From: Flavobacteriaceae bacterium
Lineage (GTDB): Bacteria; Bacteroidota; Bacteroidia; Flavobacteriales; Flavobacteriaceae
Direction of reading: 5' to 3'
DNA length: 32,051 nucleotides
Assembly: GCA_024644725.1 (NCBI GenBank)
Contig: JAHEHE010000030.1
Coordinates: forward strand, 1-32,051
Position 1 is the stretch's first letter, and every line of letters begins with the position of its first letter. Below, one piece after another: positions 5,249 to 31,314 of the stretch. A program made the translations under genes and the position numbers. A model generated the notes under the pieces. It did not search any database. It was not told the origin of the DNA and saw nothing but the letters and a program-made list of their open reading frames with translations.

Positions 5249-8200
5249 TTACGCCTTGATTTTTTTATTATTATTCTTTCTGAAGTACTTGTTGAATTTG
5301 AAATAGGCCAGCACGCTCAAAATTACGGAAATTATCAGCCAGCCCCAAATCTGGTTCGGTACTTCAGCAGATTCACCCTGTGCATAAGAGTGAAGCCCTG
5401 AGAGCAGGTGATTGACGCCCAAATAGGTCATCAGGATCGAGGCAAAGGCAAATGTCGCGGCCACATTGAAGGTATATTTGCTTTTAAAACCGGGAACCAG
5501 ACGAAGGTGCAAAACCAGCGAATAGACCATGATGCTGATCAGGGCCCAAGTTTCTTTCGGGTCCCAGCCCCAGTAACGTCCCCAGCTCTCGTTGGCCCAG
5601 ATACCTCCCAGGAAGTTTCCTATGGTGAGCATCACCAGACCGATCGTCAACGCCATTTCATTTATCGCCGTAATCTCATCGATGGCCAGTCTCATTTTCT
5701 TCTTGTTCTTCTTATTGGTGAATCCGTAAAGGATCAGAGCCAGCATGCCCAGGACCATTCCTATGGTAAACGGACCGTAGCTGGCGACAATGATCGCAAC
5801 GTGAACCATGAGCCAATAGGAATCCAAAACGGGAACCAGGTTTCCGATTGACGGATCCATCCAGTTCCAGTGGGCCACCATCAGCAGCATGGAGGTCACA
5901 AACGTGGTAGCCGCCAAGGTAAGTGGTGACTTCCGGCCGAAGATGATACCAAACAGCATCGTTGCCCAGGAAACATAGATCATCGATTCGTATCCGTTGC
6001 TCCAGGGCGCATGACCTGAAATGTACCAGCGGATGCCCAGACCGGCGGTATGATACAAAAACAAGAGAAGAATGATCAGGGTGCTCAATTTGATAAGCAG
6101 ATTGATCGTCTTGTTCGATTTGAAGATGTTGACAATCACCACGATAAACATCAACAAACTCGCATACATATAGTAAGCGAAAAGGCTCTTAAAAATATCG
6201 TACTTGTTGTAGAAAAGCTCCAGTTCCACCTTTCTTTCAGTGGGCATCACTGCGGTTCCGAACTTGCGCTGGAACTGGTGGATGCTCTGCAGGTATTCAT
6301 TGGCAACTGTGTAGTCTCCACTTGAGGTCGCCCCAACCACTTCGCGTCCATACAATGGGATGATGTTGCTCACATATAGCGAATCCTCCTCTGAAAAACC
6401 GGCTTGAGGCACCTCCATGAAAGAGTACCACTTGTTGTTCTCGGCTCCCTGACGGGGAAAGAATTTAAATATGGATCCCCCCAGGGCACCGAACAAAAGG
6501 TTGGCCCTGCCGTCGACATTAAGAACGCTCTCTTCATATTTGTTTTTGATCTTTTTCTTGTGGGCCACAGCAACCGCATCGGTCAACTTATAGACACCTT
6601 CCTCGGTAAACAGATCAGCGAAACGCGCGTATTTCTGGTCATGCGGAATGCCAATAAGGTCGCGCAATCGCGTGTTGTCCGTTTTAATGTAAATGAAAGG
6701 AACAAAATACCAGGCTCTCGGATTCACCATCATGGAGAGCATGACCTGGTCTGCGTTCATGTCGAGATAGGTATCTTTTTTGCTCACCTTTCTCAAGAGT
6801 TCAGAAGCAAAGGTGTTCACCGGCTTCATGCGCCCACCTGCATCCTGGATCACAAGTTTTCCAAAGGACTCGGCGTGAACAGGATCCACCACCTGGGCAG
6901 CGATCACCGAATCGATTACCCGGTACTGATCGTTGTGCGTATGTTGAGGCTGTGTTTGTTGGGCTTGCGCCAGGGTGACGGTCAGCAGTATGGCGGCCAG
7001 GGCCTTGGTCCTTTTTTTCTCGATCTTTTTCAATACCTGTTTCAGACCTCCAAATCGGGTGTTTTTCTCAAAGAGGATCCATATAAGACCGGTAAACAGC
7101 ATAAAATAGCCCAGGTAGGAGGTCCAGGTTCCCCACTGGTCGTAATTGACCGAAAGAAAGGTCTGTTCCACCTCGCCCTGATCGTTGTAGCTACTCTGAA
7201 AGAATCGATAGCCTTTGTAATCCAGCACGTGATTCATAAAAATCCTGAAGTCAAACACTTTTTCATCGTCTATTACCGTAATCTCACTGGCATAGGACTT
7301 CGGGCTCATCGAACCTGGGTATCGTTCCAATTGAAAATCCCTCAGTTTCACCGAAAAAGGAACCTGGAACTGTTTGGATCCATAGCTGAGCCTAAAGTTC
7401 AATCCATCCTGCTCCATGATCACCGGGCGCTCGATCTGTAACGCGGCTCCCATGAGGGATACATTGCGACGCGTATTCTTGGTTACAACTTCCACCTCGA
7501 GCAAGTCCCTTGTGTTTTCATCCTTGTTACCCGAAACCATATTCATCTTCCCGCGAACTGGCGGCTGAGGAACAACGAATTGATTGTTCTCAAATCGATA
7601 CAGGGCCCGTAAAAAAAACTGCTGTACGGAATCCTTTTTCACGTCACCCCCACTCTGCGTCGCCATCACCATATATGTGCCATCCGATGGGGCCAGGATT
7701 TTCAAAGTATCATTCTCCGTGAATATATTGGTAGCTCCGATGGTTGGATTCTCAAATGAGATTAAGGTATTGTGCACGTTGATCGTCTGACCCGCCCTTA
7801 TATAATGGTCATGTCTGCCACCGCCTCCGGATTCGACAATTTTCAGATAGAGTTCGCCATCCTCTGAGGTTTGAAATTCTTCATACGCATTCGGGATGTA
7901 ATTCACATAATTGATCTCGACCGGGTCTCCTTTGAAATCAGTTTTTATTGAAAAGTCATTGCCCCCGCGAATAAAATCCAAAAACCGAGCTGTTCTGTAA
8001 ATGAAATTACTCGCGTCCCCATAGGTGCTGGCAAAGAGGTAATTTCGGTATACCGGTGCTTTTTGATCCTTACCATCATCGATAATAACATTGACATAAG
8101 CTTTCTCAGAAAGCATCTTGTTAGTCGTTTCACCTTCGTAAATCGGCATGATACCTTCGAAGCTGATATATCGGGTAATGGCTGCCCCAGCGATTATCAA

Positions 8201-8458
8201 AATAAACGAAAGGTGAAGGATGAGCGTGGAGATCTTGGATCGGGACCACAACTCATAACGCTTGATGTTTCCGATAAAATTGATCACGAAGAAGATCATG
8301 ATCAATTCGAACCACCAGGCATTGTAAACCAATGCTTTAGACGCTTGTGTACCATAGTCGTTTTCAATGAAAGTGGCCACACCCATGGCGGCGGCGAACA
8401 GTACGAAAAGGACAGAGGTAAACCTTGTTGAAAAGAGGAAATCAGTAACTTTTTTCAT
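5249..8458 (-). CDS. ccsBA: CcsBA-type fused cytochrome c biogenesis protein (ResB + CcsA)
   Basis: System II cytochrome c synthetase (1069 residues): exports haem and joins it to CXXCH motifs of apocytochromes outside the inner membrane. The N-terminal half is ResB/CcsB-like, with three membrane segments in the first 100 residues, a large periplasmic domain, and another membrane helix near 455-475. A basic linker and a short hydrophobic segment (about 490-508) lead to a second periplasmic stretch. The C-terminal third is CcsA-like with several helices, the tryptophan-rich haem-handling motif (SWGRYWGWDPKETWALIS, about 955-973) and flanking conserved histidines (ISGHAPWSNGYES, LMVHVA, LGVNHLLSGLHS). 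It is divergent from the multihaem cytochrome cluster at 8807, whose products it would mature, and is coupled to the downstream peroxidase. Fused CcsBA is usual in Bacteroidota. Confidence 0.95.
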   Translation of the reverse strand: MKKVTDFLFSTRFTSVLFVLFAAAMGVATFIENDYGTQASKALVYNAWWFELIMIFFVINFIGNIKRYELWSRSKISTLILHLSFILIIAGAAITRYISFEGIMPIYEGETTNKMLSEKAYVNVIIDDGKDQKAPVYRNYLFASTYGDASNFIYRTARFLDFIRGGNDFSIKTDFKGDPVEINYVNYIPNAYEEFQTSEDGELYLKIVESGGGGRHDHYIRAGQTINVHNTLISFENPTIGATNIFTENDTLKILAPSDGTYMVMATQSGGDVKKDSVQQFFLRALYRFENNQFVVPQPPVRGKMNMVSGNKDENTRDLLEVEVVTKNTRRNVSLMGAALQIERPVIMEQDGLNFRLSYGSKQFQVPFSVKLRDFQLERYPGSMSPKSYASEITVIDDEKVFDFRIFMNHVLDYKGYRFFQSSYNDQGEVEQTFLSVNYDQWGTWTSYLGYFMLFTGLIWILFEKNTRFGGLKQVLKKIEKKRTKALAAILLTVTLAQAQQTQPQHTHNDQYRVIDSVIAAQVVDPVHAESFGKLVIQDAGGRMKPVNTFASELLRKVSKKDTYLDMNADQVMLSMMVNPRAWYFVPFIYIKTDNTRLRDLIGIPHDQKYARFADLFTEEGVYKLTDAVAVAHKKKIKNKYEESVLNVDGRANLLFGALGGSIFKFFPRQGAENNKWYSFMEVPQAGFSEEDSLYVSNIIPLYGREVVGATSSGDYTVANEYLQSIHQFQRKFGTAVMPTERKVELELFYNKYDIFKSLFAYYMYASLLMFIVVIVNIFKSNKTINLLIKLSTLIILLLFLYHTAGLGIRWYISGHAPWSNGYESMIYVSWATMLFGIIFGRKSPLTLAATTFVTSMLLMVAHWNWMDPSIGNLVPVLDSYWLMVHVAIIVASYGPFTIGMVLGMLALILYGFTNKKNKKKMRLAIDEITAINEMALTIGLVMLTIGNFLGGIWANESWGRYWGWDPKETWALISIMVYSLVLHLRLVPGFKSKYTFNVAATFAFASILMTYLGVNHLLSGLHSYAQGESAEVPNQIWGWLIISVILSVLAYFKFNKYFRKNNNKKIKA

Positions 8459-8806: not shown

Positions 8807-9904
8807 ATGAAAAATTCAAAGCTCTACAGTTTAATACTCATTTTTGCAGTTGCCTTGCTGAGTATTCAGTGTACCACAGACCCTATTCCAGGACCTCCGG
8901 GAGAAGACGGAGTTGATGGAGTTGATGGGGTTGACGGGGTTAACGGAACCGCCGAATGCGCCGTATGTCATAACGTTGCAAAATCAGAAGAAGTTCACGC
9001 TTCTTATCTGTTCTCGGGTCACTACAATGAAAACATGGATCATGATGTGGATGGTGACGGAATTAACGATCCCCTTTCACAATATGGAAACCGTGGTTTC
9101 GGAGGATTGTCTTGTACCTCATGTCATACCAACGATGGATACATAGACTGGGCTCAGAACGGAGTTAGTGGCCAGGGAGGTTCACATCCGGTATACGCAG
9201 GCACGCAAACAATCACATGTACAACTTGTCACGGCACGCACACAAGTTTCGACTTCGAAAATGACGGATTCGATTACGCTCTGCGAAGACTCGCACCTGT
9301 AATGCTCGTTGCTGAAAACTCTACTACAATTGACTATGGTGAAGAATTTACAAGCCATACATGTGCGACCTGCCACCAACCTAGAAGTACGTTCGAGGGT
9401 TCTATCAACGACGACGGAACTGTGGCTGTAGGCGGTCGATTTGGACCACACTATGGGGCTCAATCCACTTTATTGGAAGGAATTCAGGGTGCGGAATTAG
9501 CCGGATACGACTACCCTGGTGCTGACGGTACTGCAGTGCACAGATCGGGTTCCAGCTGTGTCGCATGCCACATGGGTGAATCAACGGGCAACAACGACGG
9601 TCTGCACACCAAAAAACCCACAGAAGCTACCTGTGTTCAATGCCACACCAATGGCGTACCATCCGACGTCACCGGATTTGAAGAATCTTACAAGGCTCTT
9701 GAAGACCTTCTTTTGGCTGAAGGACTCTTAGAACTTGATGAGGATGGTGAAACAAGCATAGTATCTGGGACATATGAGTTGATTCCCGCGGCGGCACTTT
9801 GGAACTATAGAATGCTCTACTACGACCACAGTCATGGAGTTCACAACCCCAAATACGCCAAGGCTCTCATCCAGAATTCAATCGATGCTTTGAATGGCAA
9901 TTAA
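8807..9904 (+). CDS. Hexahaem c-type cytochrome lipoprotein with collagen-like stalk
   Basis: Probable membrane-anchored electron carrier (365 residues). A lipoprotein signal ends at C22 (LSIQC). Residues 29-47 are a collagen-like Gly-X-Y run, a likely spacer from the membrane. Six CXXCH haem sites follow: CAVCH 51, CTSCH 103, CTTCH 138, CATCH 186, CVACH 251 and CVQCH 276. Spare histidines allow bis-His ligation, including the C-terminal HSHGVHNP. An acidic DVDGDGIND loop (80-88) resembles a calcium-binding site. The C-terminal helical end (GVHNPKYAKALI) is like that of other multihaem cytochromes, but no catalytic CXXCK site is present, so nitrite-reductase activity is not supported. It is the first gene of the cluster, followed by a strong hairpin that may limit read-through into the next genes. 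Inner versus outer membrane location is not determined. Confidence 0.88.
   Translation: MKNSKLYSLILIFAVALLSIQCTTDPIPGPPGEDGVDGVDGVDGVNGTAECAVCHNVAKSEEVHASYLFSGHYNENMDHDVDGDGINDPLSQYGNRGFGGLSCTSCHTNDGYIDWAQNGVSGQGGSHPVYAGTQTITCTTCHGTHTSFDFENDGFDYALRRLAPVMLVAENSTTIDYGEEFTSHTCATCHQPRSTFEGSINDDGTVAVGGRFGPHYGAQSTLLEGIQGAELAGYDYPGADGTAVHRSGSSCVACHMGESTGNNDGLHTKKPTEATCVQCHTNGVPSDVTGFEESYKALEDLLLAEGLLELDEDGETSIVSGTYELIPAAALWNYRMLYYDHSHGVHNPKYAKALIQNSIDALNGN
8891..8947 (+). repeat. Collagen-like Gly-X-Y coding repeat
   Basis: Codons for residues 29-47 of the hexahaem lipoprotein encode GPP-GED-GVD-GVD-GVD-GVN-G. The DNA is a near-tandem 9-bp repeat (GGAGTTGAT and variants), which can expand or contract by slippage while keeping frame. 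Confidence 0.8.
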
Positions 9905-9909
9905 ACCTA

Positions 9910-9948
9910 TTTAAAATGCAGATGGCGGAGTGCCATCTGCATTTTAAA
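9910..9948 (+). terminator. Strong 17-bp hairpin after the hexahaem gene
   Basis: A perfect 17-bp stem (9910-9926 with 9932-9948) encloses a 5-nt loop GGAGT. The stem ends in A/T runs on both sides, so it could terminate in either direction, but there is no separate long T tract. It lies 5 nt after the hexahaem stop and 35 nt before the next gene. It may give partial termination or protect the 3' end of the first message, giving unequal expression within the cluster. Confidence 0.72.
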
Positions 9949-9983
9949 ATCCGGTTACAGCTATTACAATCAAAACTATTTCC

Positions 9984-10358
9984 ATGAAAAATCTATATAA
10001 ACTCATAGTGTTGTCCGGCATGGCCCTCTTCCTGGGATCCTGTTACTACGACACGTTTCCTGAAGACACAGGCACGGTGCCAGATGAGGTATCCTATCAA
10101 CAAGACGTTCAGCCCATTTGGAATGCTGCATGTACAGAATGCCATGGAAACATTCCTCCAACTCTCGAAAATGGTGTCTCTTACACCAATTTGATAAATG
10201 GCGGGTATGTCGTGGCCGGGGATTCCCAAAACAGTGTGCTCTATCAATCGTTGTTGGGAATAGAAGGAGTCTCATTGATGCCTCCTTCAGGAAAACTTCC
10301 TGATTCCCAGATCAACATCGTGAAGAAGTGGATCGATGATGGGGCTGAAAACAATTAA
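9984..10358 (+). CDS. Monohaem cytochrome c lipoprotein
   Basis: Small electron-transfer lipoprotein of 124 residues. The signal ends in lipobox LGSC (C20). A short acidic linker leads to a class I-like cytochrome domain that begins with SYQQDVQPIWNAACTECH, has one haem site (C50-H54), and a likely Met axial ligand in SLMPPSG (M99). The C-terminal helix NIVKKWIDDGA is the usual last helix of this short cytochrome type, which also occurs as a domain at the start of planctomycete-type and Bacteroidota surface cytochromes. It follows the hexahaem gene after a hairpin and precedes a DUF5777 barrel by 17 nt, suggesting a role in passing electrons at a membrane surface. Confidence 0.87.
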   Translation: MKNLYKLIVLSGMALFLGSCYYDTFPEDTGTVPDEVSYQQDVQPIWNAACTECHGNIPPTLENGVSYTNLINGGYVVAGDSQNSVLYQSLLGIEGVSLMPPSGKLPDSQINIVKKWIDDGAENN

Positions 10359-10375
10359 CCTTTAAGCATTAAAAC

Positions 10376-11317
10376 ATGAAAAATTCAATAAAATATCTTA
10401 TCGTTTTTTTGATACTTCCTTTCATGGGCTATGCTCAAGAAGGTTCAGAAGAACAGACAGAAACTTCGGAAAAACCGAAGGAAAAACTCGAAAGAGCTGC
10501 TTTTGAAAGCTCCTATATCATCGACAATCAGACTGACGTAATCCTGAACAAAAAAGCTCTGGAAGTGATGTTCCAGCACCGCTTTGGATTGATCGATGAC
10601 TGGTCAGATTTTTACGGCATATGGGGTGCTGCCAACATACGCATTGGAGCGAGCTATGGAGTTCATGAGCGCGTGACACTTGGATTTGGTACGACCAAGA
10701 ACAGAAGGTACCAGGATCTGAATTGGAAAGTTGCTCTTTTGAGACAGACCCGTGAGGACAAAATGCCAGTCAACCTGACTTACTATGGTAACTTCGTCTA
10801 CGATGCAAGAAAACAAGACGCGACGAATGTTCCTCCTATAAACTACCATCAGGATCGATACTCCTATTTCCATCAGTTGATTCTGTCAAGAAGATTCAAT
10901 CCGAATCTCTCCTTGCAGTTTACGACAAGTTTATCGCATTACAATACGGTATATGGACCTGATCTCGAGAAAAACTATGAAGGAATGGACAATGATGTCT
11001 TTGGGATATCAATTGGCGGCCGTTACAAGATCAGCCCAAATACAGCAATTTTGATTGATTACAGTCAACCGCTTGTCAGTTATGATTTGTATAATACACA
11101 GAGTTTGAACCCGGATACGAACGTGTATGAATATAAATCCCTGCAACCAGGCTTTAGTCTCGGATTTGAATTTGGAACTTCGGGTCATGCCTTCCAGGTT
11201 TTCGTCAGCAACAATTGGGGAATAATCAACCAGGACAACTACATGTGGAATACGAATGACTTCTTCAGCGGAGATGTGCTGATAGGATTCAACATGACTA
11301 GGATCTATAATTTTTAG
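10376..11317 (+). CDS. DUF5777-like outer-membrane beta-barrel protein
   Basis: Predicted outer-membrane protein of 313 residues. A Sec signal ends near MGYAQ (residue 20-21); an acidic, Lys/Glu-rich stretch (22-40) follows. From about residue 45 the sequence alternates polar and hydrophobic residues in many amphipathic strands (VMFQHRFGLID, NIRIGASYGV, VTLGFGTTK, SLGFEFG), and the chain ends in aromatic Phe as barrel proteins do. The pattern fits the DUF5777 family as I know it from Bacteroidota, where members often sit beside c-type cytochromes; function is not established. No cofactor motif is seen. Its place between two lipoprotein cytochromes and a quinol module raises the idea of a porin partner. 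Family assignment is from memory of pattern, not a search. Confidence 0.75.
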   Translation: MKNSIKYLIVFLILPFMGYAQEGSEEQTETSEKPKEKLERAAFESSYIIDNQTDVILNKKALEVMFQHRFGLIDDWSDFYGIWGAANIRIGASYGVHERVTLGFGTTKNRRYQDLNWKVALLRQTREDKMPVNLTYYGNFVYDARKQDATNVPPINYHQDRYSYFHQLILSRRFNPNLSLQFTTSLSHYNTVYGPDLEKNYEGMDNDVFGISIGGRYKISPNTAILIDYSQPLVSYDLYNTQSLNPDTNVYEYKSLQPGFSLGFEFGTSGHAFQVFVSNNWGIINQDNYMWNTNDFFSGDVLIGFNMTRIYNF

Positions 11318-11350
11318 GCTTGAGAAGCCTCATTCACAAGTCAAAGAATC

Positions 11351-11593
11351 ATGGCACCAAAGAATAAATTTACACGAAGAGGTTTTTTACCCATACTGGG
11401 CGGCAGCTTGCTGCTGCCCTTCTTGGGTGAAGCGAAACCAACCCAAACCGATCAGGGACCTGATGATGAATACGAAACCCTCATCAAGCCCGACGGGACA
11501 CCTGTGAAGGTGAGAAAGTCTGCTCTGAAAGATGCCAAGGTGGTCAAGAAGCAGATCTCGAACAAGAAGCTCCTGAAATGGCTGGGCAAATAA
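11351..11593 (+). CDS. Small Tat-signal protein (80 residues), function unknown
   Basis: A tiny exported protein with a twin-arginine signal: FTRRGFLPILGG at residues 7-18, then a hydrophobic stretch and a short acidic linker. The mature part is about 50 residues: YETLIKPDGTPVKVRKSAL, likely a beta-hairpin, then a strongly basic tail (KDAKVVKKQISNKKLLKWLGK). There is no Cys, no haem site and no Fe-S motif, so a folded cofactor does not explain use of Tat. The layout resembles the N-terminal part of the next gene product, which also has a Tat signal followed by an LMTTEGDIIMV segment. It may travel with, or bind, the Fe-S protein. I do not recognise a named family. Confidence 0.75.
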   Translation: MAPKNKFTRRGFLPILGGSLLLPFLGEAKPTQTDQGPDDEYETLIKPDGTPVKVRKSALKDAKVVKKQISNKKLLKWLGK

Positions 11594-11635
11594 ATTTGTT
11601 GTCAGCCTGCAAGACGCTCATCTAATCCTACCAAC

Positions 11636-12649
11636 ATGAAAGAATCAAAAAAAGACGGTCGAAGAAAATTCCTCGACAAGGGGCTGAAATTAGGTGCTTT
11701 GACTGCCCTGGGTGGACTGGGAATTTCCAAGATCGCCTCAGGGCTCAATCGAAACTCCAAGGATGAAGGCCATGAGAAAATGGAGCTTATGACTACAGAA
11801 GGGGACATCATCATGGTGGATACAACTGAGGTCGAAGAAGTTCATCATCCTGCTGACCACGATGAAAAATATAACATCCGGGAAGGCATGCCCAACCGGA
11901 AGTTTGTCATGGTCATCGATCTTGCCAAATGCAAAAACGCCCTGGCCTGTCAAAGTTCCTGCAATAAGCATCACGCTATTACCGGAGACAATGCCTGGAT
12001 CAAGGTTTACAACATGAAGGAATCCAAGGAAGCCGCAAACTATTGGATGCCTGTAACTTGTCAACATTGTGACAAACCGGCCTGCGTAACCGTATGCCCC
12101 GTTGATGCTACATTCAAGCGAAAGGACGGCCTGGTTTTGATCGACAACGAACGATGCATTGGCTGCCGTTTCTGCATGGCTGCCTGTCCTTATTCGATCC
12201 GTGTATTCAACTGGAGCGAGCCCGACCAGGGAGAAATAACCGTGAATCTTGATATGGATATGGCTTCGCATCATCCGAGCCCTGAATATGCAGGAATGCC
12301 GAGTAAAGTAGGAACAGTTGACAAATGTGATTTTTGTCCTCATGCGGTTAAAAACAACGAATTACCCCACTGTGTGACAGCCTGCCCGAATGGTGTAATT
12401 TATTTCGGAGACAAATATGAAGACACTGTAACCAATGGCGAAGAGACTTTGAGACTCTCGAAATTACTCGAGGACAAAGCTGGTTATCGTCTGATGGAAA
12501 ATCTGGGGACACACCCAAGCGTCTATTATCTTCCACCGACCGATCGATTGGTGGATTTCGAAGACGGACTTGAGAACTACAACGAATATCAGTCGGTTGA
12601 AAAGCCCGAGATGACAGAAATGACAGAAATAGAAGAAAAACCTGAATAA
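11636..12649 (+). CDS. Tat-exported ferredoxin-type Fe-S subunit (NrfC/PsrB/DmsB-like)
   Basis: Electron-transfer subunit of 337 residues that would pair with the NrfD protein encoded 2 nt downstream. The N-terminus is a Tat signal (RRKFLDKG, 9-16, then a hydrophobic stretch to about 35), placing it in the periplasm. Four cysteine motifs follow: C99-x2-A102-x2-C105-x3-C109, C142/145/150/154, C174/177/180/184 and C231/234/246/250. The family norm is four Cys per motif; here the second position of motif 1 is Ala102, so one cluster probably has three Cys ligands and may be [3Fe-4S] or otherwise altered. Residues 49-75 are an extra segment with a histidine-rich HHPADHD patch. The C-terminal 60 residues are acidic. 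No molybdopterin subunit is next to it, unlike DmsABC or PsrABC. Confidence 0.92.
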   Translation: MKESKKDGRRKFLDKGLKLGALTALGGLGISKIASGLNRNSKDEGHEKMELMTTEGDIIMVDTTEVEEVHHPADHDEKYNIREGMPNRKFVMVIDLAKCKNALACQSSCNKHHAITGDNAWIKVYNMKESKEAANYWMPVTCQHCDKPACVTVCPVDATFKRKDGLVLIDNERCIGCRFCMAACPYSIRVFNWSEPDQGEITVNLDMDMASHHPSPEYAGMPSKVGTVDKCDFCPHAVKNNELPHCVTACPNGVIYFGDKYEDTVTNGEETLRLSKLLEDKAGYRLMENLGTHPSVYYLPPTDRLVDFEDGLENYNEYQSVEKPEMTEMTEIEEKPE

Positions 12650-12651
12650 GC

Positions 12652-13971
12652 ATGAAATCAAGAGAACAATTCATTCAGGATCTCGCCCCGAAAAAATTCA
12701 CGAAAATCGAAAAGATTTGGATGGTCCTTCTCATATCCATTATGGTCGCGGGTATGATCGCCTACATCGACCAGGTGGTGAACGGTCTTGAAGTAACCAA
12801 TTTGAATGATTACGCTCTCTGGGGCATCTACATTTCGAATTTCGTATTCTTCATAGCAACGAGTTTTATCGGATCGGCAGCTGTTGCAATATTGAGGCTG
12901 ACACGAAACAACTGGAGAACACCATTGGTGCGAATTGCCGAGATCATAGCCCTCGCTGCCATCATTATGGCAGGGATCACCATCGTCATCGACCTGGGAA
13001 GACCTGAAAGAGCTTTAAACACCATTCTTTATGCAAGATTTCAGTCTCCCATTACCTGGGACGTGATTATCATTCCTACTTATATCGTGGCGAGTTTTCT
13101 GCTTTTGTACTTCCCGCTGCTGCCGGATCTTGCGATTTTAAAAGAATATTATGCCAAAACTCATCCGAGATTAAGCAAATGGTATGGCAAACTCTCATTG
13201 AACTGGACCGGAAGCGTTGCCCAAAAGGCCATTCAGAACAAATCTGTACGGATCATTGCGGTGCTTATACTTCCATTAGGTCTTATCCTCCAAACCATCG
13301 ACGCCTGGCTGTTCTCGTCTACCTATCGAATCGGGTGGAACAGCACCAACTTTGGCCCGTATTTTATCTCCGGGGCCTTTGTGACAGGGATAGGAACGCT
13401 TGTTGCAGGAATATTCGTGGTTCGTCAGGTTAAAGGTCTTCAGGAATACATTACAGACAGTCATTTTGACAAAATGGGTAAGCTTTTGGCTTTGTCCTGC
13501 CTGGTGTATCTTTACTTCAACGCCAATGAATATTTAATGCCCGCTTACATGTCCACGGTCAATGAAGCCATTCACCTGGAGACTCTCTTTTCAGGTCATT
13601 ACTCCAACCTGTTCTGGTTTGTGACGATTGGTGGACTGGTTGTTCCTATAATTCTTCTTTTGTTCAAAAAGGGAAGAAAACCGGTGCCTATGTTCTTCAT
13701 AGGATTATTGGTTGTGATCGGAGCCTGGTGGAAGCGCTACATAATTATCACCCCTACCCTGCTGCATCCCTATCTGCCGATACAGGGTGTACCTGAATCC
13801 TGGCGTGACTATTTCCCAAGTTTACACGAATGGCTCATCACAGCTAGCAACCTGGCGACGGCACTGATCATTTTTACCCTCCTTGTACGCTACCTCCCTG
13901 TAGTGGCTATCCAGCGTACCATGGATGAGACAGAACAAGAAATAAAACAATCAAAGACATCGCAGTCATGA
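12652..13971 (+). CDS. nrfD: NrfD/PsrC-family quinone-interacting membrane protein
   Basis: Integral membrane subunit of 439 residues that in this family binds menaquinone or ubiquinone and exchanges electrons with a periplasmic Fe-S partner. About ten hydrophobic helices are visible, starting at 22-40. The family signature near residue 112 is present (IDLGRPERALNTILYARFQSP followed by TWDV, here described rather than continued). A polar loop at 180-205 and a conserved NEYLMPAY region near 290 follow. Related proteins are PsrC, NrfD, TtrC and ActC of alternative complex III. It starts 2 nt after the Fe-S gene and overlaps the next gene by 4 bp, so the three are translationally linked. The symbol is given for the family; the complex is not nitrite reductase Nrf. 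Confidence 0.9.
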   Translation: MKSREQFIQDLAPKKFTKIEKIWMVLLISIMVAGMIAYIDQVVNGLEVTNLNDYALWGIYISNFVFFIATSFIGSAAVAILRLTRNNWRTPLVRIAEIIALAAIIMAGITIVIDLGRPERALNTILYARFQSPITWDVIIIPTYIVASFLLLYFPLLPDLAILKEYYAKTHPRLSKWYGKLSLNWTGSVAQKAIQNKSVRIIAVLILPLGLILQTIDAWLFSSTYRIGWNSTNFGPYFISGAFVTGIGTLVAGIFVVRQVKGLQEYITDSHFDKMGKLLALSCLVYLYFNANEYLMPAYMSTVNEAIHLETLFSGHYSNLFWFVTIGGLVVPIILLLFKKGRKPVPMFFIGLLVVIGAWWKRYIIITPTLLHPYLPIQGVPESWRDYFPSLHEWLITASNLATALIIFTLLVRYLPVVAIQRTMDETEQEIKQSKTSQS

Positions 13972-14840
13972 AAGATTTTAAACTCACATACAGATCTCTT
14001 TTGATGTTTTTCCTCAGCACGTTGTTTGTTCTCTTCTTTATGAATGAGTCGCATGCACAGCAGAAGAAGGTTCGGGCAAGAATCAATGCAGAATATGTTA
14101 AGGTAACAGGAAAAGAGCACTACCTGGACATCAAGGCCTCGGCTAGAGTTGAGAGGCAAACCGTACCTGTTGAAAAAATAGACCTGATCATAGCGAAAGT
14201 TGAGGAAGAAGAGGAAACCGAAATTGGGACTGCTAAAACAGATTCTCAGGGCCAAGCCCGGTTCGTAATTCAAGATTTCAACTCTTTAAGACCAGACAGT
14301 ACGGGCTTCTACAACCTGATCGTGATTTTTGAAGGAAATGACGCCTTTAAAAAGGCATCGCGCGACGTATCCTTCAGAGATGCGACGATTGTAACTGAAC
14401 TAATTGAAAGAGACAGTTTGTATTTTATTGGAGCAAGAATAACCGACACGGCGCTTGACAGTGCAGTGGTGGAAACAGATTTGAACGTTCAGGTGGAACG
14501 ACTTTTTCGACCCTGGAAAATTGGGGAGGACTTTTACAGCACCGACGATGAAGGCTACATTGAAGTGCCGATTCCAAAGGGTATTCCCGGAGTTGATGGC
14601 ATTTTGAATCTGGAAGTGGTCCTGAAAGAAAGTGATGATTACGGTACGGTAAAAACAGTTTTAAAAGCTCCCGTGGGAGAATTGATCGTGGAAGAATCCA
14701 CGTATGATCAAAGAACCATGTGGTCTCCGAGAGGCAAAACTCCCGTTGTTCTGCTGGTTATCACGTACTCTTTTATATTCGTAGTTTGGGGGATTTTCTT
14801 ATATTTATTCATTAATTTGTTCAGAATAGTCAAATCTTAA
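13968..14840 (+). CDS. Exported Ig-like protein with C-terminal membrane anchor
   Basis: Unrecognised 290-residue protein. A signal peptide (hydrophobic 10-25, ending near SHAQ) is followed by two likely beta-sandwich repeats: about 35-130 (IDIKASARVERQTV-like strands, TDSQGQARFVI, GFYNLIVIFEGNDAFKKAS) and about 140-235 (IGARITDTAL, STDDEGYIEVPIPKGIPG, LNLEVVLKESDDYGTV). Each ends in a similar Ig-like pattern of an added-change strand followed by a value strand, as in bacterial Ig-like and carboxypeptidase-regulatory folds. A single hydrophobic helix at about 258-283 anchors the C-terminus, so the domains face the periplasm. No Cys or haem motif is present. ATG overlaps the nrfD stop (ATGA), pointing to a structural or assembly role in the NrfD complex (inference). 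Confidence 0.78.
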   Translation: MKDFKLTYRSLLMFFLSTLFVLFFMNESHAQQKKVRARINAEYVKVTGKEHYLDIKASARVERQTVPVEKIDLIIAKVEEEEETEIGTAKTDSQGQARFVIQDFNSLRPDSTGFYNLIVIFEGNDAFKKASRDVSFRDATIVTELIERDSLYFIGARITDTALDSAVVETDLNVQVERLFRPWKIGEDFYSTDDEGYIEVPIPKGIPGVDGILNLEVVLKESDDYGTVKTVLKAPVGELIVEESTYDQRTMWSPRGKTPVVLLVITYSFIFVVWGIFLYLFINLFRIVKS

Positions 14841-14851
14841 AATCATTTTTT

Positions 14852-15250
14852 ATGAAAAAAATTAAAAATCTTCTGCTTCTTGTTGTTTTCAGTTTTGGAC
14901 TCTTTTCATTTGGCGTTGCCATGCAGGATGAATGGGTCGTTCCTGACGAATATAAGAATATGAAGAATCCAACCGATCCCAAAGAAGATCTAAATATAGG
15001 CAAGAGCCTGTATGCGAAGCATTGTCAATCGTGTCACGGAAAAGAAGGGTATGGTGACGGAAAGAAAGCGAATGAAGTTGAAGGCGACCTGGGAGATTTT
15101 TCTTCACCTGAATTCCAGGCGCAAACAGATGGTGACCTGTTTTACAAAACTTCTATCGGTAGAAACGATATGCCTGAATACACGAAAAAAATGCCTGACG
15201 ATGAAGATCGTTGGCTGATCGTCAATTATATGAGAACATTAGCTGAATAG
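14852..15250 (+). CDS. Class I cytochrome c, monohaem
   Basis: Periplasmic or membrane-anchored electron carrier of 132 residues. Residues 1-24 are a signal peptide or N-terminal anchor with no lipobox Cys. The cytochrome c domain begins near DLNIGKSLYAKHCQSCHGKE, with haem site C58-H62, the usual GYGDG loop and a likely Met axial ligand in RNDMPEY (M107). The final helix is RWLIVNYMRTLAE. The start DEYKNMKNP is like that of small cytochromes next to alternative complex III and similar modules in Bacteroidota. It lies 12 nt after the Ig-like gene and is followed by a terminator, so it closes the cluster. It probably takes electrons from, or gives them to, the Fe-S/NrfD unit. Confidence 0.92.
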   Translation: MKKIKNLLLLVVFSFGLFSFGVAMQDEWVVPDEYKNMKNPTDPKEDLNIGKSLYAKHCQSCHGKEGYGDGKKANEVEGDLGDFSSPEFQAQTDGDLFYKTSIGRNDMPEYTKKMPDDEDRWLIVNYMRTLAE

Positions 15251-15274: not shown

Positions 15275-15307
15275 AATAAAAGGGGCCTTTGGCTCCTTTT
15301 TTATTCT
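15275..15307 (+). terminator. Intrinsic terminator closing the cytochrome/NrfD cluster
   Basis: AAAAGGGGCC (15278-15287) pairs with GGCTCCTTTT (15291-15300) with one G-U pair and a TTT loop, followed by more T residues. It lies 27 nt after the cytochrome c stop. A/T pairs outside the stem can extend it. Confidence 0.88.
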
Positions 15308-28225: not shown

Positions 28226-29284
28226 TTACGGAAACACGACCTGACCCGGAACGATCCCAGCCTCAATCGTATTGACAAGGGTTCCTGAATTCACGTTGAA
28301 CACCTTTACCATTCCCTCAGAGGCAAAATCACCAGCGTCGGTGCCATAGAGCTCTCCGCTCGCCACAGTCATGCTGTAATAGAAACCTTCCAGACCGGTT
28401 ATACCTTCTTCCGGTAATTCTGAAGCTCCCGGGTTCATCCTGTAAATCTGGCCATTCATATGGTAAAAGAGCTGCCCAGCATCAAAATTCAAGAGTCCGG
28501 GATGAGCCGTGACAAGCTCAAATTCCTTAGAGGTGGAGCTAAAATCAGAGAGTTGGATCTTGTAGAGAGCACCTGAAGTTTCTACATCGGCATAAGACGG
28601 CTTTCCGGCGCAAAGCACCCATACATTGCCAGCCGCATCTGCTTGTAAGGAATTTGGCACATCTCCAACTTCAATGGTTCTGATCACTTGATTGGTGGCG
28701 GGGTCGATCAAAACAACCTGGTTATTAAAATTAAATCCACCTTGCAATGCGACCATGAGGCCTTCGGATGTCTCGAGCATGCGCTCCGGTCCTTCTCCTA
28801 CCGGGATGGTTGCCCGAACCTCATTCGCGTCCAAATCCACAACGGCAATAAAGTCATCCGAAGGGTCAAAGGGATCCCCCCAGTTGCTGACAAAACCCCT
28901 GCCTTCAGCCACAACGAAGTGTCTCGGATTTTTGATTTCATCGCCCTGGATCACAGCCAGTTTTTCCATGGTATTGCGGTCAACTACGACAATAGCTGAC
29001 GAATTGTTCACAACGATGTAGGCCCTGTCTCCATCGATAAACATCGAATTGACGATGTTACCCAAATTCTCCCCATTAACGCTCTTGTAAACCTCCTGTT
29101 GAATATTTCCGTCATCGCCCACAAAAGTGAGGGTCCCACTTCCATTTTGAAAGGGACCTTCATTGGTAATGAAGTACCCGAATTCATAATCTCCTTTTGA
29201 TTCCTGAACAGGATCAGTGTCATCTGAACAGGACAACAAAAACAAAGGGGTCAAAAAGAAGAACAGGAGTTTGATTAATTTCAT
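28226..29284 (-). CDS. btuG: Surface beta-propeller lipoprotein, BtuG-like
   Basis: Lipoprotein of 352 residues with signal and lipobox LLSC (C19). The mature part is a YncE/DUF5074-like beta-propeller: repeated blades such as DGDRAYIVVNNSSAIVVVD, FIAVVDLDANEVRATIPVG, NNQVVLIDPATNQVIRTIE and MVKVFNVNSGTLVNTIEAG, each about 40-45 residues. In Bacteroides, BtuG is a seven-bladed surface lipoprotein that binds vitamin B12 very tightly and caps BtuB. Here the gene starts 3 nt after btuB under a cobalamin riboswitch, which strongly supports the same role, although residues that contact B12 cannot be checked by eye. Other propeller lipoproteins without B12 function exist. Confidence 0.82.
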   Translation of the reverse strand: MKLIKLLFFFLTPLFLLSCSDDTDPVQESKGDYEFGYFITNEGPFQNGSGTLTFVGDDGNIQQEVYKSVNGENLGNIVNSMFIDGDRAYIVVNNSSAIVVVDRNTMEKLAVIQGDEIKNPRHFVVAEGRGFVSNWGDPFDPSDDFIAVVDLDANEVRATIPVGEGPERMLETSEGLMVALQGGFNFNNQVVLIDPATNQVIRTIEVGDVPNSLQADAAGNVWVLCAGKPSYADVETSGALYKIQLSDFSSTSKEFELVTAHPGLLNFDAGQLFYHMNGQIYRMNPGASELPEEGITGLEGFYYSMTVASGELYGTDAGDFASEGMVKVFNVNSGTLVNTIEAGIVPGQVVFP

Positions 29285-29287
29285 TTC

Positions 29288-31108
29288 TTAAAATTTATAG
29301 GTTAGATTTAAATGACCGTTTCTATTGGGCATCGGTCTGAAAGCCACAGATTGATAAGCTTGATCAAAGAGATTGTTCACCTTGACCGATAGAATCATTC
29401 TTCGATCAAAAAAAGATTTTACCAACTCCAGGTTTGAGAGGGCGTAGTCATCGAGGCTTTGACTGTTGGACGTTGTTGTAAACACTTCTCCGGTATACTG
29501 GACCTGGTACTGTGCCGTCCATGTCCTCCAACCGTATTGAAAGATTCCATTGGCCCGGTGCTCCGGGACATAAATGAGCTGGGTGTCCAATTCTTCATCA
29601 ACGGCTCGTGTAAAGTCGTAGGCCAGGTTCCATCTTATAAGATGCTGGTTAAACCTCTTGCCGCCTTGCACCGAAAACTCGATACCGTAATTGTTTGCCT
29701 CGTTTATATTCACAGGGCTCCAAATTCCGCCTGTACCCGGTTGCCACTGAATGAGATCCTGGCTATTGATTAAAAATCCCGTAAGGGAGATCGTGTGCAT
29801 CTCCTTTTGAAATTGAAGGCCCAACTCCCCCGAATGACTGGTCTCCGGTTCGAGGTCAGGATTCCCCCCAGGTTCCCAAAACAAGTCATTGAAAGTGGGC
29901 AGTCGATAATTAGACGAATAGGCCGCCTTTAAAGCAAAGGAGCCTGACAAGTCAAAGCGTCCGTCCGCTGAAAAGATGACCGGTATGGAATACGCCGTAG
30001 AAGTTCCCGCCCGTAGGCTCAGGTTGTAGGTGAAGCGTTCAACCGGGCGGTGTTGGAACAATCCATAGGCGGTGAAATCCGTTCGTTCGGCATCCTCAAG
30101 GCTTGAACCCGTCCCATTTGCGTTCTCCAGCTCCAATCCGCCCTTGATCAGGATTTCATCCCGAATGAAATAGGTTATGTCGTATTTGCCAATGAAACGG
30201 TCACTGGATCCTTCCGAGCGGTTCTCAGGCTGGTCCCGATTGAAAAAATAGGTGAAGTCCTCGTGAAGAAAGGCAAATTTTAAGGAAGAAGTAAAGCGAT
30301 CGGCCAGGTATTTCCATTCGGCCATCAATCGGGTATCGAGATTTTCCAGTCTCTCATTGCCCCTTACGGTCAGGGTCCTCGAAAGGTTCCTGTCATTTTG
30401 GAAAAGAATTGAATGAAACAAGATCTGGCTGTGCTCATCGAGTTGATACCCCAGAGAAACATTGGCGTTGTAGTTCTCAAATTGACCGTTTTCATTCTTG
30501 AGTTCGGTCCCCAGAAAGGGATAGTCATTCTCGGAACGCATCCCTCCCAATCCCAGTTTTACGGTAAAGCGGTCGGAGCTCACAAGGCCGCTGAATTGTC
30601 CTTTGTAGGTTTCATAGCTACCGGCCCCTAAGAAAACCCGGAATGCATCATCTTCGCCATAGGGAATCCGATCGCTTAAGTTGACCGCTCCCCCGACGGC
30701 CCCGTTGCCCAGCAAAACACTTCCCCCTCCTCTTCGGATCTCAATGGCATTGAAGCTGTTACCCTGAATGGTGTTGAAGTCGGTTTGTCCGTTAAGCGTA
30801 GAATTTATGGCAATACCATTCCAAAATACCCCGGTCTGGGAGGCTGTCGTACCGCGAAGAGAAATGGAGGAGACCATTCCGTACCCATTCTGCTTGAAAT
30901 ACAGGTTGGACTGCTTTTCGAGAAGCTCGCCCAAAGACTGATAATCAGAATTCAGCAAGGAGTCTGAAATCGTCTGTATGCTGTAGCCCGGATTGACGGA
31001 GCCCGCAAAATTGCCCTTCAAAAGGATTTCCTCCAGTTGCTCGGATTTTCCTGACTGAGCCGAAGCAGCGCCGAAAGAAAAGAAAATGAATAGTATAAAT
31101 AATCTCAT
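29288..31108 (-). CDS. btuB: TonB-dependent vitamin B12 receptor
   Basis: Outer-membrane receptor of 606 residues, energised by TonB, for cobalamin uptake. The signal peptide MRLFILFIFFSFGAASAQ defines the start at 31108; the frame is open further to 31219 but that extension is the riboswitch RNA read as protein. The plug domain (about 25-145) has SLGELLEKQSNLYFKQNGYG, SSISLRGTTASQTGVFWNGI and IEIRRGGGSVLLGNGAVGGAVN. The barrel ends with VKVNNLFDQAYQSVAFRPMPNRN and a final Phe. There is no N-terminal carboxypeptidase-like domain, so it is a BtuB/Cir-type receptor, not SusC. Assignment to B12 rests mainly on the riboswitch 40 nt upstream and the BtuG-like gene 3 nt downstream. Confidence 0.93.
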   Translation of the reverse strand: MRLFILFIFFSFGAASAQSGKSEQLEEILLKGNFAGSVNPGYSIQTISDSLLNSDYQSLGELLEKQSNLYFKQNGYGMVSSISLRGTTASQTGVFWNGIAINSTLNGQTDFNTIQGNSFNAIEIRRGGGSVLLGNGAVGGAVNLSDRIPYGEDDAFRVFLGAGSYETYKGQFSGLVSSDRFTVKLGLGGMRSENDYPFLGTELKNENGQFENYNANVSLGYQLDEHSQILFHSILFQNDRNLSRTLTVRGNERLENLDTRLMAEWKYLADRFTSSLKFAFLHEDFTYFFNRDQPENRSEGSSDRFIGKYDITYFIRDEILIKGGLELENANGTGSSLEDAERTDFTAYGLFQHRPVERFTYNLSLRAGTSTAYSIPVIFSADGRFDLSGSFALKAAYSSNYRLPTFNDLFWEPGGNPDLEPETSHSGELGLQFQKEMHTISLTGFLINSQDLIQWQPGTGGIWSPVNINEANNYGIEFSVQGGKRFNQHLIRWNLAYDFTRAVDEELDTQLIYVPEHRANGIFQYGWRTWTAQYQVQYTGEVFTTTSNSQSLDDYALSNLELVKSFFDRRMILSVKVNNLFDQAYQSVAFRPMPNRNGHLNLTYKF

Positions 31109-31110
31109 AG

Positions 31111-31138
31111 ACAACAGTTTTTCTTCCGAAAACTTTGT
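31111..31138 (-). promoter_or_regulatory. Hairpin between riboswitch and btuB start
   Basis: On the minus strand ACAA-AGTTTT (31138-31129) pairs with AAAACT-g-TTGT (31121-31111), with one bulged G at 31115. The loop holds GGAAG, a Shine-Dalgarno-like sequence, and the stem ends 2 nt before the ATG. It is a candidate expression platform that controls translation; there is no long T tract for termination. Confidence 0.5.
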
Positions 31139-31148
31139 TCTTACGAAA

Positions 31149-31314
31149 TTGGCAGGTTTCCTGGCTTGCGTCCCGATGTTTGCCTTCCCTTCTTTGAGAA
31201 AGTGGCTTGCAGTAAACACCGGCCACCGATAAAACGGCTTAGCTTACAGTTGCGGAGACAGCTCCCGACTCTAACGGGATTCCCATTTCAAATCCGCTTC
31301 GTGCGGACCAAAAT
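31149..31314 (-). ncRNA. Cobalamin (B12) riboswitch
   Basis: Read on the minus strand, the leader contains the conserved parts of the class in order: GAAATGGGAATCCCG, the GGGAGCTGTCTCCGCAACTG segment followed by TAAGC, GGTGGCCGG, GCCACT, GGGAAGGC, a GACGC link and the B12 box AAGCCAGGAAACCTGCC (31166-31150). Order and spacing match the adenosylcobalamin-type aptamer. The receptor gene starts about 40 nt downstream. Adenosylcobalamin binding is expected to lower btuB-btuG expression. Exact ends are approximate. Confidence 0.95.

Follow-up and report, generated by a model that had tools for sequence, protein, structure and literature searches.

An eight-gene module of a marine Flavobacteriaceae bacterium may carry respiratory electrons from the quinone pool across the cell envelope. 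It lies on a contig of 32,051 nucleotides, which was analysed whole (the window) and belongs to a 2.83 Mb assembly of 161 contigs that is 90.31% complete (genome G000). A previous annotation of this DNA (the sequence-only reading) had described eight co-directed genes between positions 8807 and 15250, coding for a six-haem ('hexahaem') lipoprotein, a single-haem ('monohaem') lipoprotein, a barrel, a small protein with a twin-arginine translocation (Tat) signal, an iron-sulfur (FeS) subunit, an NrfD subunit, an immunoglobulin-like (Ig) protein and a cytochrome c. The positions hold, and the open reading frames (ORFs) and Pfam matches agree with the list (Table 1). That reading hesitated between a quinol:cytochrome c oxidoreductase and an electron route to or from the outer membrane, and this remains the best-supported interpretation. 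We think it somewhat probable that the module is a quinone-linked trans-envelope conduit that oxidises menaquinol, probably on an extracellular route. We base this on the conserved core order, the repeated changes of the first gene and the lack of molybdopterin proteins in 94 loci; on the acidic and serine residues at the quinone positions of NrfD, and the hexahaem protein of the MtrC/MtrF type with its conserved set of histidines (His); on the presence of the hexahaem family in multihaem clusters without the module, and the recurrent pairing of the monohaem lipoprotein with DUF5777; and on the precedents of SirCD and Cbc4 (PMC11434368) and of the Melioribacter NrfCD (PMC3534657). Papers cited by PubMed Central (PMC) accession are used in excerpt, and what we say of them is limited to those excerpts.

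We infer the direction of flow, the location of the parts, their assembly into a complex and the final acceptor as follows. By homology, NrfD would oxidise menaquinol at the outer face of the inner membrane and pass the electrons to the clusters of the Tat-exported FeS subunit. This subunit would reduce the small cytochrome c in the vicinity of the Ig protein, itself anchored in the membrane. The cytochrome would in turn deliver to the monohaem lipoprotein and the DUF5777 barrel, which the lipoboxes, the Pfam barrel family and the recurrent neighbours would place at the outer membrane. From there the electrons would go to the changeable haem lipoprotein, which may be of the hexahaem, EB_dh or dihaem kind, and finally to an acceptor outside the cell, for example metal oxides or humics.

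Table 1. Features of the module and its immediate surroundings in the window.
Feature	Position	Strand	Basis
Hexahaem lipoprotein, collagen-like GxxGxx linker behind the lipobox	8807..9904	+	Pfam Mtrc-MtrF_II-IV
Monohaem cytochrome c lipoprotein	9984..10358	+	one CXXCH; cytochrome matches below cut-off only
DUF5777 protein, candidate outer-membrane beta-barrel	10376..11317	+	PF19089, 1.1e-71
Small Tat-signal protein, like the N-terminal extension of the FeS protein	11351..11593	+	sequence
Tat-exported FeS subunit, four cysteine motifs, motif I CxNAxxCxxxC	11636..12649	+	Fer4 dicluster domains (Pfam)
NrfD-family quinone subunit	12652..13971	+	PF03916, 1.1e-29; ActC nearest solved chain
Ig-like protein, signal peptide and C-terminal membrane anchor	13968..14840	+	sequence, relatives
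Monohaem cytochrome c, candidate periplasmic shuttle	14852..15250	+	Pfam Cytochrome_CBB3 and Cytochrom_C
Intrinsic terminator-like stem-loop, 10 pairs, after the last gene	15278..15300	+	sequence
ResB-CcsA fusion (cytochrome c maturation), divergent upstream neighbour, accessory	5249..8458	-	Pfam, NCBIfam

The order of the genes is widely conserved. Relatives came from a profile scan of contigs, of which we kept the best 80 of at least 582 confirmed stretches. Two contigs carry two identifiers each (L024/L041 and L026/L035), and mixed counts contain these duplicates. Close relatives occur in named Flavobacteriaceae, with Eudoraea, Lutibacter, Aestuariivivens, Muriicola, Pelagihabitans and Robiginitalea among the holders. 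We scored the succession of monohaem lipoprotein, DUF5777, FeS, NrfD, Ig and cytochrome c in the 80 named loci. By ORF calling, it was complete in 43 of the 55 loci with room on both sides and failed in 12; the other named loci comprised 23 short ones, three of them complete all the same, and two lacking a called FeS ORF. Searches with tblastn recovered uncalled genes in five loci (Ig in L044 and L050, monohaem in L065, FeS and DUF5777 in L059, FeS in L091), which brings the tally to 48 of 57 loci with room. Of the nine outside the order (L035, L069, L074, L096, L105, L109, L111, L113 and L114), L096 is interrupted by a tandem copy, and the others show rearrangements or an uncalled part. Such conservation over many genera rules out a chance arrangement. 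In several loci a second copy of FeS, NrfD and a short Ig gene follows the first. The copy of L026 (genome G017, same contig as L035) looks decayed, with a shortened DUF5777 ORF and no Ig or cytochrome c gene called after NrfD; a second FeS-NrfD-Ig set lies elsewhere in G017 (L027). Of the 22 genomes in the genus, 14 have a close NrfD orthologue (≥68% identity), a number that includes the window genome and two partial matches located at the ends of contigs. Beyond the genus the distribution is patchy: among genomes sampled at completeness ≥90%, the FeS profile reaches an E-value of 1e-80 or better in 5 of 296 in the order and 11 of 392 in the phylum.

The first gene is the variable part of the module. 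The monohaem lipoprotein can be preceded by a hexahaem protein, by an EB_dh (PF09459) lipoprotein with a CX3CH motif, by both, by a dihaem lipoprotein or by none of these. We labelled this 'head' by hand in 48 of 89 tabulated loci, the others being cut, ambiguous or rearranged. On the FeS tree (49 rows including the window, 48 of them different) the five states cannot be explained by fewer than 11 changes (28.0 in shuffled data); with 15 of the 45 inner branches well supported, this figure is approximate. The core is thus shared, and the hexahaem protein is one of several heads found on it. Contrary to what had been assumed, it does not form a constant centre, since many relatives lack or replace it. 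Haem spacing varies as well: EB_dh lipoproteins mostly have CX3CH rather than CX2CH, and the monohaem lipoprotein uses CX4CH in distant relatives (L083, L096, L101 and L105).

The sequence-only reading had found no molybdopterin protein among the eight genes, and indeed none of their products matches a molybdopterin family of Pfam or NCBIfam. The same is true of the surroundings of the module in its relatives. A profile of the five molybdopterin proteins of genome G011, run against the ORFs of the 94 loci, retrieved only the ActB of L033 (E 1.6e-4), our control. Single-sequence searches of these loci with the five proteins gave ferredoxin matches of the FeS type only and missed that ActB, and the best 30 tblastn rows of the five proteins and ActB against the 80 named loci were all matches to the FeS domain of ActB. 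A molybdopterin gene located elsewhere may serve the FeS protein. PF00384 is present in all 22 genomes of the genus, whether or not they have the module, and the five copies of G011 lie at least 585 kb from it. The premise of a molybdopterin partner, intact or as a remnant, in known NrfD systems was mistaken, because several have none (PMC8076601, PMC11434368, PMC3534657). NrfABCD, NhcABCD and MccACD have haem catalytic subunits, and the [NiFe] hydrogenase Hyd-2 is named as well (PMC8076601); none of the five DsrMKJOP subunits listed is a molybdopterin protein (PMC11434368). In Melioribacter roseus, an NrfCD pair without molybdopterin is proposed to be a quinol:acceptor reductase feeding multihaem cytochromes, possibly towards an outer-membrane Fe(III) reductase (PMC3534657).

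The FeS subunit is distinctive. The second cysteine of motif I is gone in 110 of the 111 full-length members, replaced by Ala (97), Leu (10), Glu, Gln or Val (1 each), and only L092_14 keeps it. Alignment shows this cysteine in the 2vpw B chain, listed as NRFC PROTEIN, which we take to be PsrB. By analogy with proteins of the NarH type, we assume that it belongs to the cluster furthest from the membrane, on the molybdopterin docking side; this distal cluster is probably [3Fe-4S]. Among solved chains, 2vpw_B and 6cz7_B come closest (114 bits each), and the nearest NCBIfam model is DsrO, under its cut-off. The small Tat protein has no match in Pfam or NCBIfam; 48 of its 56 relatives have the twin arginine, and the one in L063 matches the FeS protein at 6e-7.

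The cluster is also relevant to the direction of flow. The same parts could work in reverse, an extracellular donor reducing the surface haem protein and, through it, the quinone pool. A high-potential [3Fe-4S] cluster on the exit side would favour outward flow, and many hosts of the module are of heterotrophic genera, both of which speak against the reversal. In its favour, QrcABCD runs towards menaquinone (PMC13059093, PMC8076601), and a fused cytochrome-porin serves iron oxidation (PMC8406198). We regard reverse flow as decidedly unlikely.

The closest solved relative of NrfD is ActC (236 bits; ActF gives 45), and the nearest NCBIfam model is DsrP, under its cut-off. We placed the quinone-site residues named for ActC (PMC8076601) on our alignment, the mapping being our own. 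His139, Ser164, Asp169 and Asp253 of ActC correspond to Asp114, Ser132, Asp137 and Leu220 of the window protein. The last three are invariant in 13 aligned NrfD proteins, and position 114 differs in L031; an aspartate at the place of His139 is a trait that the window NrfD shares with DsrP, QrcD and MccD. The window Ig protein has no Pfam match over cut-off, its relative in L031 matches Big_1 over cut-off, and a C-terminal hydrophobic segment is present in 96 of the 100 Ig relatives of at least 150 amino acids (aa).

The proximity to ActC and the family of the monohaem cytochrome c, present in 79 of the 94 loci, are what one would expect of a purely periplasmic quinol:cytochrome c oxidoreductase, similar to alternative complex III, that supplies electrons to soluble enzymes (oxidases or nitrous oxide reductase, for instance) while its lipoproteins face the periplasm. 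In line with this, nosZ is close to the module of L044. Within the genus, however, nosZ does not go along with the module (11 of the 14 genomes with the NrfD orthologue, 6 of the 8 without it) and was not found in the window genome, for which reason we rejected a link with nitrous oxide reductase. It is the cytochrome c that goes with the module in the genus: both are found in 13 of the 22 genomes, neither in 5, only NrfD in 1 (on a cut contig) and only the cytochrome in 3 (Fisher p 0.011, uncorrected for kinship or incompleteness). Furthermore, the barrel and the lipoproteins of outer-membrane type are conserved parts of the module, and complex III seems to be encoded separately, given that ActC- and ActB-like matches occur elsewhere in the window genome, on contigs C90 and C68. 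We thus hold the purely periplasmic alternative to be unlikely.

Several traits of the hexahaem protein are consistent with a role in extracellular electron transfer. It matches PF22113 (Mtrc-MtrF_II-IV) at 43.9 bits, over a cut-off of 30, as well as Cytochrome_C7, and an OmcA/MtrC-family cytochrome is the best match of its profile among solved structures (1.6e-9). The lipobox cysteine is invariant in 19 hexahaem proteins. In the alignment of 33 homologues, there are six columns of haem-motif His and six other His columns, five of the latter conserved in all 33 proteins and one in 31. This alignment includes 14 homologues from loci fetched later, in seven of which one haem motif is CX3-4CH, and leaves out L039, L047, L076 and L094, with cut or ill-called ends or starts, and proteins longer than 460 aa. 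Six haem motifs and six further conserved His are what six bis-His haems need, and the protein therefore reads as an electron wire rather than as the reactive part. The sequence-only reading had allowed for both roles; the ligand pattern argues for the first and against the second.

The hexahaem family is not restricted to the module. We found it in 63 of the 392 phylum genomes (E 1e-25), many times within frames of 600-980 aa, and only three of the 63 (G000, G101 and G195) also carry the module FeS protein (E 1e-80). We examined ten of these non-module loci. In five (L152-L155 and L160) the hexahaem protein adjoins a single-haem protein of about 400 aa, and the Tat protein accompanying the pair is a Rieske protein in all three loci tested (L152, L153 and L155). 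In L156, L158 and L164 it occurs with proteins of six to eight haems, of 14 haems and of about 425 aa without haem; in L159 its neighbours carry 8, 12 and 11 haems; and in L157 the family is part of a lone nine-haem protein with no comparable neighbours. We infer that the proteins of about 400-425 aa may be barrels, for which library searches and a strand score gave no support. We rejected L159 as a barrel-bearing locus: its 434-aa ORF is on the opposite strand and does not look like a barrel. The proteins of about 400 aa have an aromatic C-terminus and, behind the signal peptide, a single CXXCH (L152:7723-8949, L153:10537-11736, L155:11614-12873 and L160:8065-9339); next to the hexahaem protein (and, in the three loci tested, the Rieske protein), they make a Cyc2-like layout without the Cyc2 motif. 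One strand of L156 (248-14998) encodes two hexahaem-family proteins, proteins of 6, 14, 3, 4, 11, 8 and 4 haems, and a separate pair of the NrfC/NrfD type.

The outer-membrane step would involve the monohaem lipoprotein and DUF5777. The former has CX2CH in 58 of the 84 members of its family, CX4CH in 25 and neither in one. The best matches of DUF5777 among solved structures are porins, at a weak E-value of 0.36. The family is above cut-off in 91 of 146 order genomes, and a survey of its 30 best loci there (L165-L194, up to about 1.5 kb on either side) revealed the window-family monohaem protein in 24, not always on the same strand. The pair thus recurs with no FeS or NrfD genes in view and may be the two-gene equivalent of fused single-haem barrels. 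YceI neighbours of DUF5777 were confirmed by Pfam in both loci tested (L168 and L178). The position of the lipoproteins at the surface is only partly supported by putative export signals, as defined in PMC5080379. An acid at +4 alone is found in 20 of the 25 hexahaem proteins.

Some observations weigh against the conduit. Acids at both +4 and +5 are found in only 1 of the 25 hexahaem and 10 of the 73 monohaem proteins, versus 13 of the 27 EB_dh proteins. Profile comparison of DUF5777 with the fused single-haem proteins showed no homology. Our home-made score of amphipathic strands fails to separate barrel candidates from controls, with z-values of 1.7 for the window DUF5777, 0.2 to 1.0 for four fused proteins, and 0.4, 3.0, 1.9 and -1.5 for the proteins of L156, L158, L164 and L159, as compared with -0.8, 1.0 and 1.5 for soluble or periplasmic controls and 4.5 for a TonB receptor. 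Seven loci with upstream room have no haem lipoprotein as first gene, and a surface cytochrome is therefore not obligatory. Finally, the hexahaem profile also matches NrfA nitrite reductases (2.8e-8).

This last match, with weak similarities to eight-haem nitrite reductases and NrfB, raises the question of a dedicated reductase, in which the hexahaem, EB_dh or dihaem lipoprotein would be catalytic on nitrite, sulfite or tetrathionate. We consider this very unlikely: the His pattern leaves no open haem by sequence, three dissimilar heads stand in for one another, and there are loci with none at all. ORF calling in the 80 named loci gave no protein with CXXCK and at least three CXXCH, a pattern blind to NrfA of the CXXCH type.

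How does the putative conduit relate to known systems? It is not a variant of alternative complex III, a comparison that the sequence-only reading had called for. Both have haem proteins and an ActC-like NrfD, and would take electrons from quinol to cytochrome c, but ActB is a fusion of a molybdopterin-like and an FeS protein, whereas the window protein has 337 aa with Fer4-type domains only. Complex III has both ActC and ActF; the module has a single NrfD, and the tandem copies of relatives bring their own FeS gene. The ActB of L033 has motif I intact and a threonine for the second cysteine of motif III, whereas the module FeS protein loses its ligand in motif I. We found no homology to ActA: hhalign of the hexahaem profile with a single sequence, the six-haem protein before the ActB of L033, gave a probability of 7. 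Complex iron-sulfur molybdoenzymes (CISM) of the Psr, Ttr and Dms types were set aside, as no molybdopterin subunit accompanies FeS and NrfD in the 94 loci. The same goes for DsrMKJOP (DsrO 178 bits for a cut-off of 200, DsrP 112 for 350; DsrM, DsrK and DsrJ unmatched among the scanned window proteins), the NrfABCD nitrite reductase (nrfC 113.7 for 377.6) and QrcABCD (QrcC 123.5 for 400, QrcD 67.8 for 570).

With adjacent FeS and NrfD genes, cytochrome c partners and no molybdopterin gene in its loci, the module fits by gene content the NrfCD/SirCD type without molybdopterin and would be predicted to have quinol:cytochrome c activity. SirCD of Shewanella and Cbc4 of Geobacter are quinol oxidoreductases without molybdopterin, the membrane subunit of Cbc4 being called a b-type cytochrome (PMC11434368). 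Like these two and the Melioribacter NrfCD, the module has an FeS protein with an NrfD or other membrane subunit, lacks molybdopterin and is associated with c-type cytochromes that are fed, by proposal or demonstration (PMC11434368, PMC3534657). It differs from them by the loss of the motif I cysteine and by the conserved order in which lipoproteins, a barrel and an Ig-anchored protein accompany the FeS/NrfD pair. The dsrOhPh-tetrahaem locus of cable bacteria also has a DsrO/DsrP-like pair with a multihaem cytochrome outside DsrMKJOP, but the partner is a tetrahaem protein, and the excerpts of PMC13047784 mention neither barrel nor lipoproteins. Porin-cytochrome conduits such as MtrCAB share the MtrC/MtrF-family multihaem lipoprotein near a barrel family; they have the multihaem MtrA in the barrel, whereas the module has the monohaem lipoprotein only and homology between DUF5777 and MtrB is not shown. 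Cyc2 combines a single haem with a barrel in one fused protein with the motif AXPXFAR[QK][TY] (PMC8406198), whereas the module has separate genes and the motif is absent from the window protein.

The eight genes look like an operon, with intergenic distances of 79, 17, 33, 42, 2, -4 and 11 bases and a terminator-like site at the end. A relative of the divergent ResB-CcsA gene adjoins the module in L022, L024 (the L041 contig), L028, L029 and L031. We searched for Fnr-like sites and the Bacteroidetes -7 element (TANNTTTG). The frequency of Fnr-like sites and of TANNTTTG in the window is not above chance, and none occurs within the 348-base upstream gap. Downstream come a MarR gene (Pfam), then membrane-fusion-like and resistance-nodulation-division (RND)-like genes, named by eye. 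Further away on the minus strand (28226-31219), a DUF5074 protein and a TonB-dependent receptor are perhaps a separate uptake pair. The neighbourhood differs in relatives. A gene of the HemA family (glutamyl-tRNA reductase) and a lipoprotein without Pfam match follow the module in L038 (12670-14708; Pfam on this locus only), and genes of similar sizes do so in eight more (L036, L044, L047, L050, L056, L059, L070 and L085). In L039 (12641-14622 and neighbour), from a Lutibacter genome, a second FeS/NrfD-like pair and a four-haem protein adjoin the module on the opposite strand. In genomes of Cytophagales type, the core is immediately preceded in L058 by an RND set of metal-efflux-like character, CusB-like protein included (Pfam on this locus only); by gene sizes, L060, L061, L062 and L069 have such a set as well.

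The principle of a quinol oxidase delivering to cytochromes is already known, since NrfD-type pairs without molybdopterin have been described (PMC3534657, PMC11434368, PMC13047784). In the open-licence PMC literature searched, of which we used excerpts, there is no account of this gene order, FeS signature, DUF5777 partner or changeable head, and DUF5777 itself goes unmentioned. The parts of the module are of familiar kinds; for their arrangement we found no description in this bacterial group. Tentatively, it could represent an extracellular-respiration module of Bacteroidota, with one quinol oxidase, a distinctive FeS subunit, interchangeable surface haem proteins and an outer-membrane step reduced to a small barrel plus one single-haem lipoprotein. 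Eudoraea, Muriicola, Pelagihabitans, Aestuariivivens and Robiginitalea are cultured genera known as ordinary heterotrophs. If the conduit is real, they would possess a means of exporting respiratory electrons, open to testing in isolates. The module would then join the inner-membrane entry points of extracellular electron transfer as an NrfD-based quinol oxidase, and would illustrate how a single core can take on different surface haem proteins.

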